A stretch of DNA of 64,000 nucleotides from Planctomycetaceae bacterium (GTDB taxonomy: Bacteria > Planctomycetota > Planctomycetia > Planctomycetales > Planctomycetaceae): the NCBI GenBank assembly GCA_015485495.1, contig WFTL01000130.1, positions 1-64,000 of the forward strand, read 5' to 3'. Shown here in pieces: positions 13,441-18,906 of this stretch. Each line of letters begins with the position of its first letter. Position 1 is the first letter of the stretch. Below the pieces are notes generated by a model that searched no databases, had not been told where the DNA came from, and saw only the letters and a list, made by a program, of their open reading frames with translations. Both the position numbers and the translations under genes were made by a program.

Positions 13441-13534
13441 TGTCGACGGATTCCCCGTCCACCGTCTTTGGCCATGTTCCTTTGTTCAGAACATGCAACG
13501 ACCCTCTCGGTGATCGGGGTCCTGCCGGAAAATC

Positions 13535-13574
13535 GGAAACCGGCCGACCTGCACTGTTCGGCCCGCCGGTTTCC
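13535..13574. terminator. Likely terminator between convergent genes
   Basis: A 10-bp stem GGAAACCGGC (13535-13544)/GCCGGTTTCC (13565-13574) is followed on the plus strand by TGTTTTC and on the minus strand by GATTTTCC. It can serve the minus-strand DUF1080 gene, whose stop is at 13629, and act as a backstop for the plus-strand operon. Confidence 0.6.
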
Positions 13575-13628
13575 TGTTTTCACTGCGGGTGCGACCGGAC
13601 CGACTTCCTGCCGTCCGGATGTGAACGG

Positions 13629-14282
13629 TCACAGCGGCCGAATGAACACGTTGCGGTACCACACTTCGCTGTGGTGATCGGTGAGCATGATGCGACCGGT
13701 ACGGTTGCAGCCGAATCCGCGTCGGTCCCGAAACTTGCTCTGCTGAATATGCTGCCGCCAGCGACGGCTGCCGGCTCGTTCATCCACAGTCAGCTGTCCG
13801 TTGATCCAGTGCTTCAGCCGCTGCCCGCGAACGACGATACGGCCGACATTGAATTCCCCGGCCGGACGAACACGGACCGGCTGCGTGCGGGGCGCGAACA
13901 CGTCATAAAGCGATGCGGTTTTGTTTTTTTCCGACAGATCGGGAAAAGCCGCGTCATCGAGAATCTGAAACTCGCAGCCCAGCAGACTGTCGCCGTACCG
14001 GCGAACGCGGTATTTGATTCCGCTGTTTCCGCCTTCAGAAATGCGGAATTCGAACCACAGCTCGAAATCCGTGTAGCAGCAGCGCGTCACGATGTGACCG
14101 CCCCGGCCCTGCAGGTGCAGCGTCCCGTCGTCATCGAACGCCCAGCCTTCCCGAACCGGCCGGCCGGATTCTGTCATCCAGTGGTGCAGCGAGCGGCCGG
14201 GAAGAAGATTCGTGAAGGAATGCTGCGCCGACACCCGGCCGGTCAGCAGCAGCAGGACGCAGAACAGCAACGGACGCATCAT
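13629..14282 (-). CDS. Exported DUF1080 (3-keto-disaccharide hydrolase-like) protein
   Basis: 217 residues. The start at 14282 (MMRPLLFCVLLLLTGRVSAQ) gives a clean signal peptide with an AxA-type cleavage site and has GGAG about 8 nt upstream. The frame extends further upstream but that part has no similarity. The mature part fits the DUF1080 jelly-roll fold: LLPGRSLHHW, GGHIVTRCCYTDFELWFEFRIS, NSGIKYRVR and a C-terminal VWYRNVFIRPL strand. Many family members are planctomycete proteins thought to act on carbohydrates. At 217 residues it is close to a single domain. It is monocistronic. Confidence 0.85.
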   Translation of the reverse strand: MMRPLLFCVLLLLTGRVSAQHSFTNLLPGRSLHHWMTESGRPVREGWAFDDDGTLHLQGRGGHIVTRCCYTDFELWFEFRISEGGNSGIKYRVRRYGDSLLGCEFQILDDAAFPDLSEKNKTASLYDVFAPRTQPVRVRPAGEFNVGRIVVRGQRLKHWINGQLTVDERAGSRRWRQHIQQSKFRDRRGFGCNRTGRIMLTDHHSEVWYRNVFIRPL

Positions 14283-14619
14283 CGCGTCTCCATGAAACAC
14301 CATGCCATCGAAAACACACACGGAACCGGCCGCGACGATAACAGGAACGGCAGGCCGCTGTCCCCTCAGAAACCGCATCGGCACAGAAAAACAGGATGTT
14401 TTGGCAGTCTGGGAAGCGGTGTTCCCGGTCGAAACGGCGGCGGACCGTTCTTCGGAACGATCTGGCCACGCTGTCCGGTTTTCACTACCGTTCGTGTTCT
14501 GCAGTCGGCCGTGCGGCTGTGGCCTTCGACGGGAACATCGGACGAATCATGCGAACGAACCGGTTCGCTGAAACCGGGACGGATGTCCCGGCAGGGATCT
14601 GTTGCAGGGAGGCAACTGA
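14283..14619. other. Divergent intergenic region
   Basis: 337 bp between the minus-strand DUF1080 gene and the plus-strand SbcD-like gene. It should contain both promoters. Nothing else was recognised. Confidence 0.5.
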
Positions 14620-15669
14620 GTGGGATCCATCTGTTTTCTGCACACTGATTACTGGCGACTGGCCGAGCCGATTGCCGGGCTGACCGGCGCGCCGGGCTGG
14701 CTTCGCCGGCTGGTCCGGGACGCCGGTCGGACGGCCGTTCTGAAAACCTTCGAACTGGCATCCGCTCACCAGGTGGATTTCCTGTTTCTGGCCGGAGCCG
14801 CCACGAATGAGCCGGCTCATCAGGACTGCGTGGCCGCGTGGCTGTCCGGGCCACTGAACGCTTTGAAAAGCCGTGGCATACGTGTGGTGATGGCCGCATC
14901 GGGCAACGCGGCACTGGACCGTCTGGCCGACGTGGTTCTGCATCCGAATCACTGGCTGGCCGTCGACTGCCGACCGTCGCTGCGACTGACTCCCGTGCCG
15001 ATCGGCGAAACCTCGACGTGCGAACTGGCTCTTGTTCCGTTCACGTCGGGCTTTTTGCCCGCGGCATCGCATCGGTACCGGTATCGGGTGTCGCAGCATC
15101 ATACCGTCGAGACCGATGTCCGTGGGCACCGCTGGGTGTCAGCGGGCGTCACGCAGACGCTGCATCCCGGAGAAACACAGACCGGCGGATGTCTGATCGT
15201 CCGAACTTCGTCGACCGGCGGGTGCGATGCGGAACCGGTCGTGGATTTCCACCGCACCGGTGTGCTTCGCTTCGAACGCCGAGGCATTCGGATCCCGGCC
15301 GCTGCCGGCCTGGCGGCGTCGTCCATCTGTGACGCCGTGACGGAAGCATCCCGCACTCTGACTGCAGAAGGCGAAACGGCGATCGTCGCCTGGGATGTGG
15401 AACTGACCGGCGGAGAAGAATGCGGTGTGCCGATCGAAGCGGAGGCTCTGCAGGAGACACAGCTTCTGGAGGCGGTTCGTTCTGCTCTGCAGAACGGGCA
15501 TCTGGGAACCTGGCCGCGCCGCATCGACGTACGGCTTCCTGAGGATCCGGCAATTCCGGAACAGGAAGACACCTGCATCCGAACATTTGGAGGTGTTCTG
15601 CGCGACCGAAACACAACCGACCGCGAGCCGCTGATCATCGGTCTGCGGCTGCTCCGCCGGACGGCCTGA
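14620..15669 (+). CDS. SbcD/YhaO-like protein with degenerate metallophosphoesterase motifs
   Basis: 349 residues, GTG start with GGGAGG about 10 nt upstream. The N-terminus follows the SbcD/Mre11 nuclease fold (CFLHTDYWRLAEP, then FLFLAGAATNEP, then VMAASGNAALD). Every metal-binding motif is altered: the D-x-H of HTADWHLG reads Y-x-R, GDxFD reads GAATN, and GNHD reads GNAA. It should therefore be a non-catalytic homologue. The gene is followed after 60 bp by an SbcC/YhaN-like ATPase, the usual partner order, so a complex is likely. The C-terminal ~200 residues carry no motif I recognise. An unrelated protein with chance N-terminal resemblance cannot be excluded, but the partner gene argues against it. 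Confidence 0.65.
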   Translation: MGSICFLHTDYWRLAEPIAGLTGAPGWLRRLVRDAGRTAVLKTFELASAHQVDFLFLAGAATNEPAHQDCVAAWLSGPLNALKSRGIRVVMAASGNAALDRLADVVLHPNHWLAVDCRPSLRLTPVPIGETSTCELALVPFTSGFLPAASHRYRYRVSQHHTVETDVRGHRWVSAGVTQTLHPGETQTGGCLIVRTSSTGGCDAEPVVDFHRTGVLRFERRGIRIPAAAGLAASSICDAVTEASRTLTAEGETAIVAWDVELTGGEECGVPIEAEALQETQLLEAVRSALQNGHLGTWPRRIDVRLPEDPAIPEQEDTCIRTFGGVLRDRNTTDREPLIIGLRLLRRTA

Positions 15670-15729
15670 CGCCGGACAGCGGGGATTCTTCGGAGTCAGC
15701 CGGCTCCGTCATTTTGAAAGGACAAAACA

Positions 15730-18700
15730 GTGCGACTGACGAATCTGACGGTGGATCAGGCGGGCATTCTGAAGAACGTTCGGCTGCAGAATCTGAGTGA
15801 TCTGAACGTGATTCTGGGCGGCAACGGATCGGGAAAATCGACTTTGGCGCGGTTCATTTTCGATCTGCTTCTGGCCAGAAACGGTCTGTCTGCCGACTGT
15901 TCGGGACAGCCGGCGACCGGTCGCATCGAACTGTCGCACGACGGATCCGCCTGGGTTCTGGACACGGAACCGTCCGGAACAGCCGCATCGATTCAGGTCC
16001 GGTGCGACGGTCGTCCGACCGACTGCCATGTCTGGCGCGGGCGGCGATCGAGCTGGATGACCGACCAGGTTCTTCAGGACGTCTTTTTTCCTCGTTACGA
16101 AAACGCCGATCGGTTCGACCATCTGACGAAACTGTGTCTGCAGACAGAACGCCCCCGGACCGATGATGCCGACCGGCGCCGTGCCGAAGCGGCGGCCGAG
16201 CGGGCCTTTCAGGAACGAACGACTGTGGAGCAGCAGATGGAAGCGCTTCGCAGGCGGCGCTGTCGTCTGGAAGCTCAGCAACAGGCGCTGATAGAACACA
16301 CGGGACCATCGCCGGCCAGGATTCATCAGATCCAGGCCCAGATCGAAACGGTGCGTCAGCGGCAGTCGGAAGTTCGTCGGCACATCATTCGGCTGACGGA
16401 AGAGACGCATTCGCTGCAGGAAACGCTTCGGACTTTGTCCGCCCGTCGGGCTGTGAAACTGGATCGGCGCCGCCTGCAGCAGGAACTGGCTGAACTTCAG
16501 AGCCGACGGGATCAGTGGACGCGGATTCAGGTGATGGTCGAACACCTGACGGACCCGATGACATCGACCGACCTGCCGGCTCCGGAACGATCCGGACGTG
16601 CAGTACGGGCGGTGATCGAACGGCTCGAAAACGTTCTGGCCGGACGGACGGAAGAGGCCGCCGGCCTGTCGGAGCACGGCATCGATCAGGAAGTCGCCGT
16701 TTTGTGCCGCTTCGCCCAGGAACAGAACGACTCCGTTCAGGCCTGGCAGCAGACCTGCGAACAGCAGTGCGGCCGCCAGGCCCTCAACGGCATCGTCCAT
16801 GCCCGCATGCTTCTGGATGCCCGCATCCGGGCTGTCCAGGAGGAACTTCAGCGGGCGGACAACCTGCTGGACCGTTCTTTGCACGAGAATCCGGCCTGCC
16901 GTGCGGTGTGGCATCAGTCGTATCGTGCCGAGCAGAACATGGCCGAGACGGCCGCGGAATCGCTGCGGCAGCGGCTGGCGGACACCCGGGCGCAGCTTAC
17001 AGCGCGGCAGACCGAACAGACCACTCTGCAGAAACAGCAGCGTCATCTGACTGCCCGTCTGGAAGACCTTCGCAGGAAGCTGCAGGCCGTTCCCTCACTG
17101 GAACAGATCGATGAATTTCAGGCGCAACTGGCGGAAATCGATGCGGAGCTGGAACGGCTGGCGGAACGTCGTCGTGTGCTGACGACCACGGAAGAAGGGC
17201 TGCGTGAGACGGCTGTCCGTCTGCAGGAACAACCGCATCCGGAAAACCCGGTGCTGGAAATCGCATCGCGCTGGCTGCAACAGATCACTCAGGGAGAGTG
17301 CCTCCGGGTCGCTGCCTGCCGTGACGCCCGCCAGCTTGTTGTGGACACATCCGTGGCCGACACTCCCCTGCAGATCTGTCAGCTCAGCCGCGGCACACAG
17401 CATCAGCTGGGACTGGTTCTGCGTCTGGCCCTGGCCTGTGTGCATGCCGAACACGGGCGTTTTCCGATGGTCATCGATGATGTCTTTCTGACATCGGACG
17501 ATGAACGCGGCCAGGCGACGGCCGACCTGTTGCGCGATGTGGCCGCAGGCGGTCAGCAGATTCTGCTGCTGACCTGTCAGAACGACGTGTGCGATCTGCT
17601 GGCATCCCGTGGAGCAGGTCGCTATGTGCTCCAGGAAGCGCGGTCTGCTGCACCGATAAAGCCTGTCCGGCAGGCCGCTGCACCGCAGGTCGAAGTGCCC
17701 CTGACGATCAGGACATTCGATGTACAGCCCGATCCGGAGGCCGAAGAGACGGCAGAAACTTCTGCGGAGACCGTCGAGTCCGGAACAGGAACGGACGATC
17801 CGCCCTGGCTGTACTACGTGGAAGCGGACGCACCGGTCACGGAACTGTCCGGGCTGGCGCTGAGCGAACAGCGGGGGCTGGCTGCCGGCCGAATCGTCAC
17901 CGTAGACGATCTGCTGACATGCGTCGTATCGGAAACGCGTGAACGCATTCAGCAGGCCGGATTTTTCATCACGGATGAGCGGCTGACCGCTCTGAGGCAC
18001 CAGGCAGAACTGCTCGTCCGGATCCCGATGCTGCGACCACGTGATGCGGAACTTCTGGTGGTCAGCGGCATCCAGACGGTTCGTCAACTGGCCCACCTGC
18101 GTCCGGAAGCCGTCTATGAGCTGGTGACGCGGTTCCAGAATTCCGATTCCGGCCAGCGGTATCGGCGCCAGGGAATGGCGATCGATCGCCAGCAGGCGAT
18201 CAACTGGACACGCTGGGCCCTGCATGCCCGCAGTCTGCCCCAGGCCCGCGATGCGGTTTTGGGAAGGGCGTCCCGGCATGATCGGGATCACCGTCTGCTT
18301 TCCGCATCGCGCCGTCCGCGAGCCGGCTCCCGTGCAGCGACCCGTCGCCACGCACGCCCTCAGAAGACCTCCGCCGAACAGCAGCGGCTCCGCATGCGCC
18401 GCCGGCGCACCAGCCGCAGACACGCGGCGGCCGGGGCTTCTGCGGAACCGTCGCGTTCCGACGGCGACCTGAAGTTCTACCTGCAGCGCTCCAGTCCGGT
18501 CGAAAAGGCCCCGTCCATCGGACCTCGGACGGCGGAACGGCTGCGTCAGGTGGGAGTGGACACGGTGGATGATCTGCTGAACTGCGATGCCCACACGGTG
18601 GCCACGCTTCTGGACGATCGTCGGATTCGCCCGGCCGATGTCGAGCAGTGGAAGCGGCAGGCGGCGCTGGTGTGCACGGTGCCGAAGCTGCGCGGCCACG

Positions 18701-18906
18701 ATGCGCAGATTCTGGTCGCCTGCGGCCGGCACACGCCGGACGACATCTGCAGCATGTCGGCCGAACAGTTGTACGCGGTCGTGCAGCCTTTCTGCGAGAC
18801 CACGGAAGGAGCACGCATCATCCGCGGCGGGCGCAAACCGGATCTGAAGGAAGTGCAGGACTGGATCAGCTGGGCCGGCCAGTCGCGTTCCCTGCGTGCT
18901 GCCTGA
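15730..18906 (+). CDS. SbcC/YhaN-like coiled-coil ATPase fused to two DUF4332 helix-hairpin-helix modules
   Basis: 1058 residues, GTG start with AGGA about 9 nt upstream. The Rad50/SbcC-type head is split: Walker A GGNGSGKST at 30-38, ABC signature LSRGTQHQLGL near 552, Walker B MVIDDVF near 580. Gln/Arg-rich coiled coil spans about 155-535. A CEQQC pair (Cys343, Cys347) sits mid-coil where Rad50 has its CxxC zinc hook, but with one extra residue. After a short linker comes a first DUF4332-like block (about 690-840), a very basic Arg/His-rich linker (about 845-905) and a second block (about 913-1056) with a clear helix-hairpin-helix, APSIGPRTAERLRQVGV. HhH motifs bind DNA backbones. It follows the pseudo-SbcD gene by 60 bp. 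Role inferred: structural maintenance or repair of DNA. Confidence 0.8.
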   Translation: MRLTNLTVDQAGILKNVRLQNLSDLNVILGGNGSGKSTLARFIFDLLLARNGLSADCSGQPATGRIELSHDGSAWVLDTEPSGTAASIQVRCDGRPTDCHVWRGRRSSWMTDQVLQDVFFPRYENADRFDHLTKLCLQTERPRTDDADRRRAEAAAERAFQERTTVEQQMEALRRRRCRLEAQQQALIEHTGPSPARIHQIQAQIETVRQRQSEVRRHIIRLTEETHSLQETLRTLSARRAVKLDRRRLQQELAELQSRRDQWTRIQVMVEHLTDPMTSTDLPAPERSGRAVRAVIERLENVLAGRTEEAAGLSEHGIDQEVAVLCRFAQEQNDSVQAWQQTCEQQCGRQALNGIVHARMLLDARIRAVQEELQRADNLLDRSLHENPACRAVWHQSYRAEQNMAETAAESLRQRLADTRAQLTARQTEQTTLQKQQRHLTARLEDLRRKLQAVPSLEQIDEFQAQLAEIDAELERLAERRRVLTTTEEGLRETAVRLQEQPHPENPVLEIASRWLQQITQGECLRVAACRDARQLVVDTSVADTPLQICQLSRGTQHQLGLVLRLALACVHAEHGRFPMVIDDVFLTSDDERGQATADLLRDVAAGGQQILLLTCQNDVCDLLASRGAGRYVLQEARSAAPIKPVRQAAAPQVEVPLTIRTFDVQPDPEAEETAETSAETVESGTGTDDPPWLYYVEADAPVTELSGLALSEQRGLAAGRIVTVDDLLTCVVSETRERIQQAGFFITDERLTALRHQAELLVRIPMLRPRDAELLVVSGIQTVRQLAHLRPEAVYELVTRFQNSDSGQRYRRQGMAIDRQQAINWTRWALHARSLPQARDAVLGRASRHDRDHRLLSASRRPRAGSRAATRRHARPQKTSAEQQRLRMRRRRTSRRHAAAGASAEPSRSDGDLKFYLQRSSPVEKAPSIGPRTAERLRQVGVDTVDDLLNCDAHTVATLLDDRRIRPADVEQWKRQAALVCTVPKLRGHDAQILVACGRHTPDDICSMSAEQLYAVVQPFCETTEGARIIRGGRKPDLKEVQDWISWAGQSRSLRAA

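Follow-up and report, generated by a model that had tools for sequence, protein, structure and literature searches.

The window (the whole stretch of DNA that was analysed, 64,000 nucleotides) carries two adjacent genes on the forward strand, to which all coordinates below refer. The first (14620..15669, GTG start) encodes a pseudo-nuclease subunit of 349 amino acids, a degenerate YhaO/SbcD/Mre11-like metallophosphoesterase, and the second, which follows on the same strand after 60 bp (15730..18906, GTG start), encodes an SbcC/YhaN-like coiled-coil ATPase of 1058 amino acids with a tandem DUF4332 tail. The start of the 349-residue frame agrees with the M-x-x-I-x-F-x-H-T-D starts of its relatives. 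An open frame of 388 amino acids with a TTG start (13482-14648) was considered as a third subunit and rejected; it has no family match, overlaps the start of the pseudo-nuclease, and has no counterpart upstream of the pair in relatives, and it is probably not a gene.

The 349-residue protein has no match in Pfam, NCBIfam, or PADLOC, and its assignment as a diverged SbcD/YhaO, proposed in a first-pass annotation of this DNA, is borne out by profile comparison. The alignment of 14 close relatives matches that of eight intact YhaO proteins in hhalign with a probability of 99.6 (E=7.4e-25, 316 columns), and a chance resemblance to SbcD is ruled out by this profile–profile alignment. Motifs I and II of the window type align with intact YhaO without gaps, and a late motif, SAGxxQ....E...GC, pairs with GNxQGR..ExGxxGC of the intact proteins; in the window protein, this retained motif reads SAGVTQTLHPGETQTGGC (15139..15192), the counterpart of GxxQGRxxxExGxxGC in intact YhaO. 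An intermediate group connects the two types, as the window type aligns with it at E=5e-31 and the group itself aligns with intact YhaO at E=1e-48 in profile–profile comparison, and one of its members matches Pfam Metallophos (E=3e-6). Profile searches against PDB sequences also place SbcD/Mre11 at the top, with E=0.0018 for the window's type and approximately 1e-10 for the sister lineage. The homology spans the phosphoesterase and C-terminal regions of SbcD/Mre11/YhaO, the window protein being approximately 65 residues shorter than intact YhaO, and a conserved C-terminal block, NGHLGTWPRRI (15493..15525), in which G-x-x-G-x-W-P is invariant in 14 relatives, probably falls in the region expected for the capping domain. 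AlphaFold2, run on the window protein as a single sequence with no alignment, returned a pLDDT of 35.5; the predicted metallophosphoesterase fold is assigned via the sequence profiles, by which the small protein is a true YhaO/SbcD/Mre11 homologue.

The first-pass annotation had described the three metal-binding motifs as lost, and the catalytic positions are indeed gone, motifs IV and V (His; GHxH) included, although only two of the three replacements that it had named stand as alignments. Former motif I (14641..14664) reads HTDYWRLA for HTADxHLD, with Asp replaced by Tyr and His by Arg, and former motif II (14794..14808) reads GAATN for GDxFD, with the metal-binding Asp replaced by Ala; both align with their counterparts. 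The letters GNAA (14902..14913) lie in the region of former motif III (GNHD), but the profile alignment shifts them by one position relative to it and they are not conserved; relatives read GHAE, RHPE, ATRD, or DADT at this position, so the shared "GN" is a coincidence. At most one doubtful His is left in the window protein among the seven metal ligands and the proton-donor His, and the pseudo-nuclease would be catalytically dead by every sequence criterion, an inactivity argued from its residues. The closest lineage keeps H-T-D-x-x-R-L where intact nucleases read H-T-A-D-x-H-L, which places a new Asp/Arg pair near the lost metal ligands, and H8, D10, R13, and L14 of former motif I (window numbering) are invariant across the closest 14 relatives.

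The extent of the loss was assessed at eight Mre11 positions, D8, H10, D49, N84, H85, H173, H206, and H208 in P. furiosus numbering. In Mre11, metal 1 is held by D8, H10, D49, and H208, and metal 2 is held by D49, N84, H173, and H206. The seven metal ligands are common to PolD DP1 and Mre11, and H85, the proton-donor His, is essential for the nuclease activity of Mre11 (PMC4996933). An alignment of 95 partners was read at these positions, including nine references (eight YhaO and one SbcD), all from the window's class. All eight positions are present in 9/9 references, and among the remaining 86 aligned partners, N84 and H85 occur together in none and H206 occurs in none.

The degenerate form is widespread. 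Approximately 100 degenerate loci were read from 93 genomes, 62 genera, and 14 families, all in the window's class (one locus was drawn twice), where class and family labels (f1, f2, f3, and so on) are the groupings of the genome collection used and f1 is the window's family. N84 and H85 are found together in none of these approximately 100 homologues, whereas all eight positions are kept in 22/22 partners sampled from the phylum's other classes, a set selected for resemblance to the degenerate group and not by motif, and this difference argues that the degenerate motifs are not due to chance. All eight positions are likewise present in five named partners from other phyla (Deinococcus, Latilactobacillus, Bosea, Natrinema, and Pseudosulfitobacter), and in both of these intact sets an ATPase gene follows the partner wherever the stretch allows. 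In total, 31 intact loci from 24 families were read, and within the class itself the few loci read in f2 and f3 also encode intact YhaO; none of these counts estimates prevalence, as the loci were taken from profile hits with a preference for the strongest ones. The search for orthologues with intact motif positions, which the first-pass annotation had suggested, thus yielded none within the clade, and the intact copies form a separate clade.

Outside the window's family, the erosion is incomplete. N84, H85, and H206 are lost in 48/48 of these members, and the set D8/H10/D49/H208 is complete in 28/48; the absence of the former three residues throughout indicates that metal 2 and the proton donor are gone from the clade, while many members keep the metal-1 set. 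In the two lineages of the window's family, A and Y, the metal-1 site is also lost, commonly with a replacement of His10 by Arg. The loss looks stepwise from the aligned residues, the metal-2 site and the proton donor going first and the metal-1 site later. The same counts would suit a different history, in which members outside f1 with D8, H10, D49, and H208 keep a single-metal site for another activity, either a structural metal or a phosphoesterase for another substrate, and the window protein derives from such a form and became fully dead only later. We regard this as improbable, since the proton-donor His, reported essential for the Mre11 nuclease (PMC4996933), is lost in all 48 of them, and the window lineage is without metal 1 too.

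The history of the pair was also read from an ATPase tree, which is independent of the motif columns and whose root was not inferred by the program. The tree separates 57 degenerate pairs from 26 intact pairs by one branch with an SH-aLRT support of 100, and a single loss is thus sufficient to explain this set. Intact partners occur across the other classes of the phylum and, judged by motif, in other phyla too, which makes loss, and not gain, the natural direction. Three degenerate lineages can be distinguished: lineage A, which includes the window and carries DUF4332; lineage Y, a second copy in the same family; and one lineage in other families. Taken from sequence and tree, the nuclease subunit appears to have lost its activity once, in or near the ancestor of the bacterial class, probably planctomycetes, and to have been retained since then.

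One locus on a truncated contig, L185:164-1558 (G309), has a degenerate partner, and in a first tree its long-branched ATPase grouped next to the intact clade; the locus was omitted from the second tree of 57 and 26 pairs and could be an independent loss.

The window's ATPase gives weak SMC/AAA matches in Pfam and NCBIfam, together with a C-terminal DUF4332 match (E=1.1e-32) in two stretches with helix-hairpin-helix similarity (17881..18219 and 18508..18876). Walker A (GGNGSGKST, 15817..15843), the ABC signature (LSRGT, 17383..17397), and Walker B (FPMVIDDVF, 17461..17487) of a split ABC head are all present and are separated by the coiled coil. The description of these motifs as intact is accurate for the window itself, but the signature is degenerate in two same-genus relatives (LSLTT and LSQQT) and the His of the H-loop is replaced by Gln617 (17578..17580). 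Gln is found at this position in 21/28 type A ATPases, whereas the His is kept in 8/8 intact, 9/9 lineage Y, and 45/48 other ATPases; the replacement suggests slow ATP hydrolysis.

DUF4332 is present in 27/28 type A ATPases, and in the 28th case the domain is encoded by an ORF of its own; no ATPase outside type A carries it. The CxxC zinc hook is the defining feature of Rad50/SbcC, and none was found in the window's coiled coil; the intact YhaN copies read here are also without CxxC. Type A ATPases instead carry lineage-specific residues in the coiled coil, namely C326 (16705..16707, in 26/28) and C390-x4-H395 (16897..16914, in 26/28 and 25/28), which are not conserved outside type A, and this Cys-Cys-His triad is a candidate metal site of the coiled coil or a candidate substitute for the hook. 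In two species of the window's family, the frame is open and the Walker A/B motifs are lost, with GLNPQAGND / LVLREV in L139:2238-5393 (G395) and SAGSEESSD / LILNQC in L136 (G376); judged by sequence, these species may have no enzymatic activity left in either subunit.

Where a locus extends far enough, the two genes are almost always neighbours on one strand, often with a 4-base overlap, which confirms the canonical place of the partner directly ahead of the ATPase; this arrangement is seen in nearly all genomes examined. In 23 neighbourhoods spanning up to 26 kb, no effector, third gene, or other conserved neighbour was found beyond the pair, which is a stand-alone two-gene unit. One exception is L048:5156-8773 (G017), where a type A DUF4332 ATPase has no upstream pseudo-nuclease and an Hsp70-like gene is found instead. 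The pair was also considered as a mobile element, and no copy of the window's pair was found on plasmid or viral contigs.

Pairwise dN/dS of the pseudo-nuclease is 0.05-0.20 among close relatives and 0.26 between the window and G002, with similar values for the ATPase, as estimated by simple Nei–Gojobori counts with partly saturated synonymous sites. These values point to purifying selection on the pseudo-nuclease, and together with the open frames, they disfavour a pseudogene. A decaying, near-functionless remnant left after the loss of the nuclease would account for the stepwise loss of motifs, for the two species in which the Walker motifs are gone, and for the degenerate signature of the same-genus relatives, but such decay is very hard to reconcile with full-length open frames at approximately 100 loci, with dN/dS of 0.05-0.26, and with the new invariants that are shared lineage-wide (HTDxxRL in the partner and C326/C390/H395 in the ATPase), and we give it almost no weight.

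Among the closest known systems is YhaO–YhaN, an SbcCD-like exonuclease/ATPase pair, whose genes are likewise adjacent, in the same order and of the same sizes, and whose two subunits are both homologous to those of the pair by profile; the clade differs in having no catalytic N-H and no first His of GHxH, and the window lineage has additionally lost DxH and GD and gained the tandem DUF4332, the Cys-Cys-His triad, and the H-loop Gln. SbcCD and Mre11–Rad50 (MRN) likewise join a metallophosphoesterase-type partner with a coiled-coil ABC ATPase in one operon, but the window protein has no metal site, no CxxC was found in its ATPase, and the pair is apparently non-nucleolytic. Lamassu (LmuABC) is similar in combining a Rad50-like ATPase, LmuB, with a non-nuclease partner, yet the window pair has neither an LmuA effector nor a conserved third gene, and is widespread and not sporadic.

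The first-pass annotation had also raised the possibility of a new defence system, which the data do not favour: no effector or neighbour is conserved, the pair is spread over 14 families, and the partner has no match in the defence library. In a related reading, which follows a proposal made for LmuB in Lamassu, the pair recognises DNA ends or hairpins and then alerts or recruits an effector, such as a nuclease encoded apart from it (the genome's intact SbcCD, for instance). The best defence-library match of the ATPase is LmuB (E=7.8e-14), an intact SbcD is encoded elsewhere in the window's genome (G000), and Lamassu itself is described as pairing a Rad50-like sensor with an effector that is a distinct protein (PMC10586767). 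However, most of the similarity to LmuB falls in parts that the whole superfamily shares, coiled coil and ATPase, the 23 neighbourhoods hold no conserved effector or third gene, and the class-wide distribution is unlike the sporadic spread described for Lamassu (PMC10586767), all of which disfavours Lamassu or another defence role; we consider this sensor function unlikely, although less so than a single-metal activity.

The explanation that we prefer, at about even confidence, is a YhaON/SbcCD-type complex whose nuclease was inactivated once and kept as a scaffold, and whose function we infer to be that of an ATP-gated DNA clamp or tether. Like Mre11/SbcD in SbcCD, the pseudo-nuclease would be located at the base of the heads of the ATPase, holding and gating them, and ATP-driven closure of the heads would clamp ends, hairpins, or duplex DNA and leave it uncut. 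For the lineage of the window, the tandem DUF4332/HhH tail would supply extra DNA contacts, the Cys-Cys-His triad may substitute for the zinc hook as a coiled-coil contact, and slow ATP turnover upon replacement of the H-loop His by Gln would favour a long-lived tether over a processing machine, with cutting left to the separate intact SbcD. A precedent is provided by the B-subunits of eukaryotic replicative DNA polymerases, in which an inactivated Mre11-like phosphoesterase is likewise kept as an assembly scaffold (PMC4996933), although their partner is a polymerase and not a Rad50-like ATPase, and they carry an OB domain. Counting against the clamp are the type A ATPase of G017, which has no upstream pseudo-nuclease, and the two relatives with lost Walker motifs (L139 and L136), whose species an ATP-gated clamp does not fit.

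More tentatively, and at somewhat less than even confidence, the pair may be a class-specific, housekeeping, SMC-like complex that organises DNA as a tether or clamp, derived from a YhaON/SbcCD ancestor with its nuclease switched off and extended in one lineage by a DNA-binding tail of the DUF4332/HhH type and by a coiled-coil contact through Cys-Cys-His, and would then represent a nuclease-free end state of Mre11–Rad50. It has long been asked whether Mre11–Rad50 matters mainly as a nuclease or as a DNA tether and sensor, and point mutants are the usual means of addressing this. A class-wide complex in which the nuclease was turned off once, early, and in steps is seemingly a natural separation-of-function experiment, and the gene pair would allow the non-nucleolytic role of such complexes to be studied directly. 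A search of an openly licensed full-text library turned up no description of a conserved, nuclease-dead SbcD/YhaO in planctomycetes or any other group, which is weak evidence of novelty, as most subscription journals lie outside that library. For annotation, the label "DNA repair exonuclease", when given by neighbourhood, would misname a widespread family, the most diverged members of which are missed by Pfam and NCBIfam. The window's genome carries a second, paralogous pair of dead YhaO and YhaN (L049:1547-6534, G000:C175), which belongs to lineage Y and is without DUF4332.
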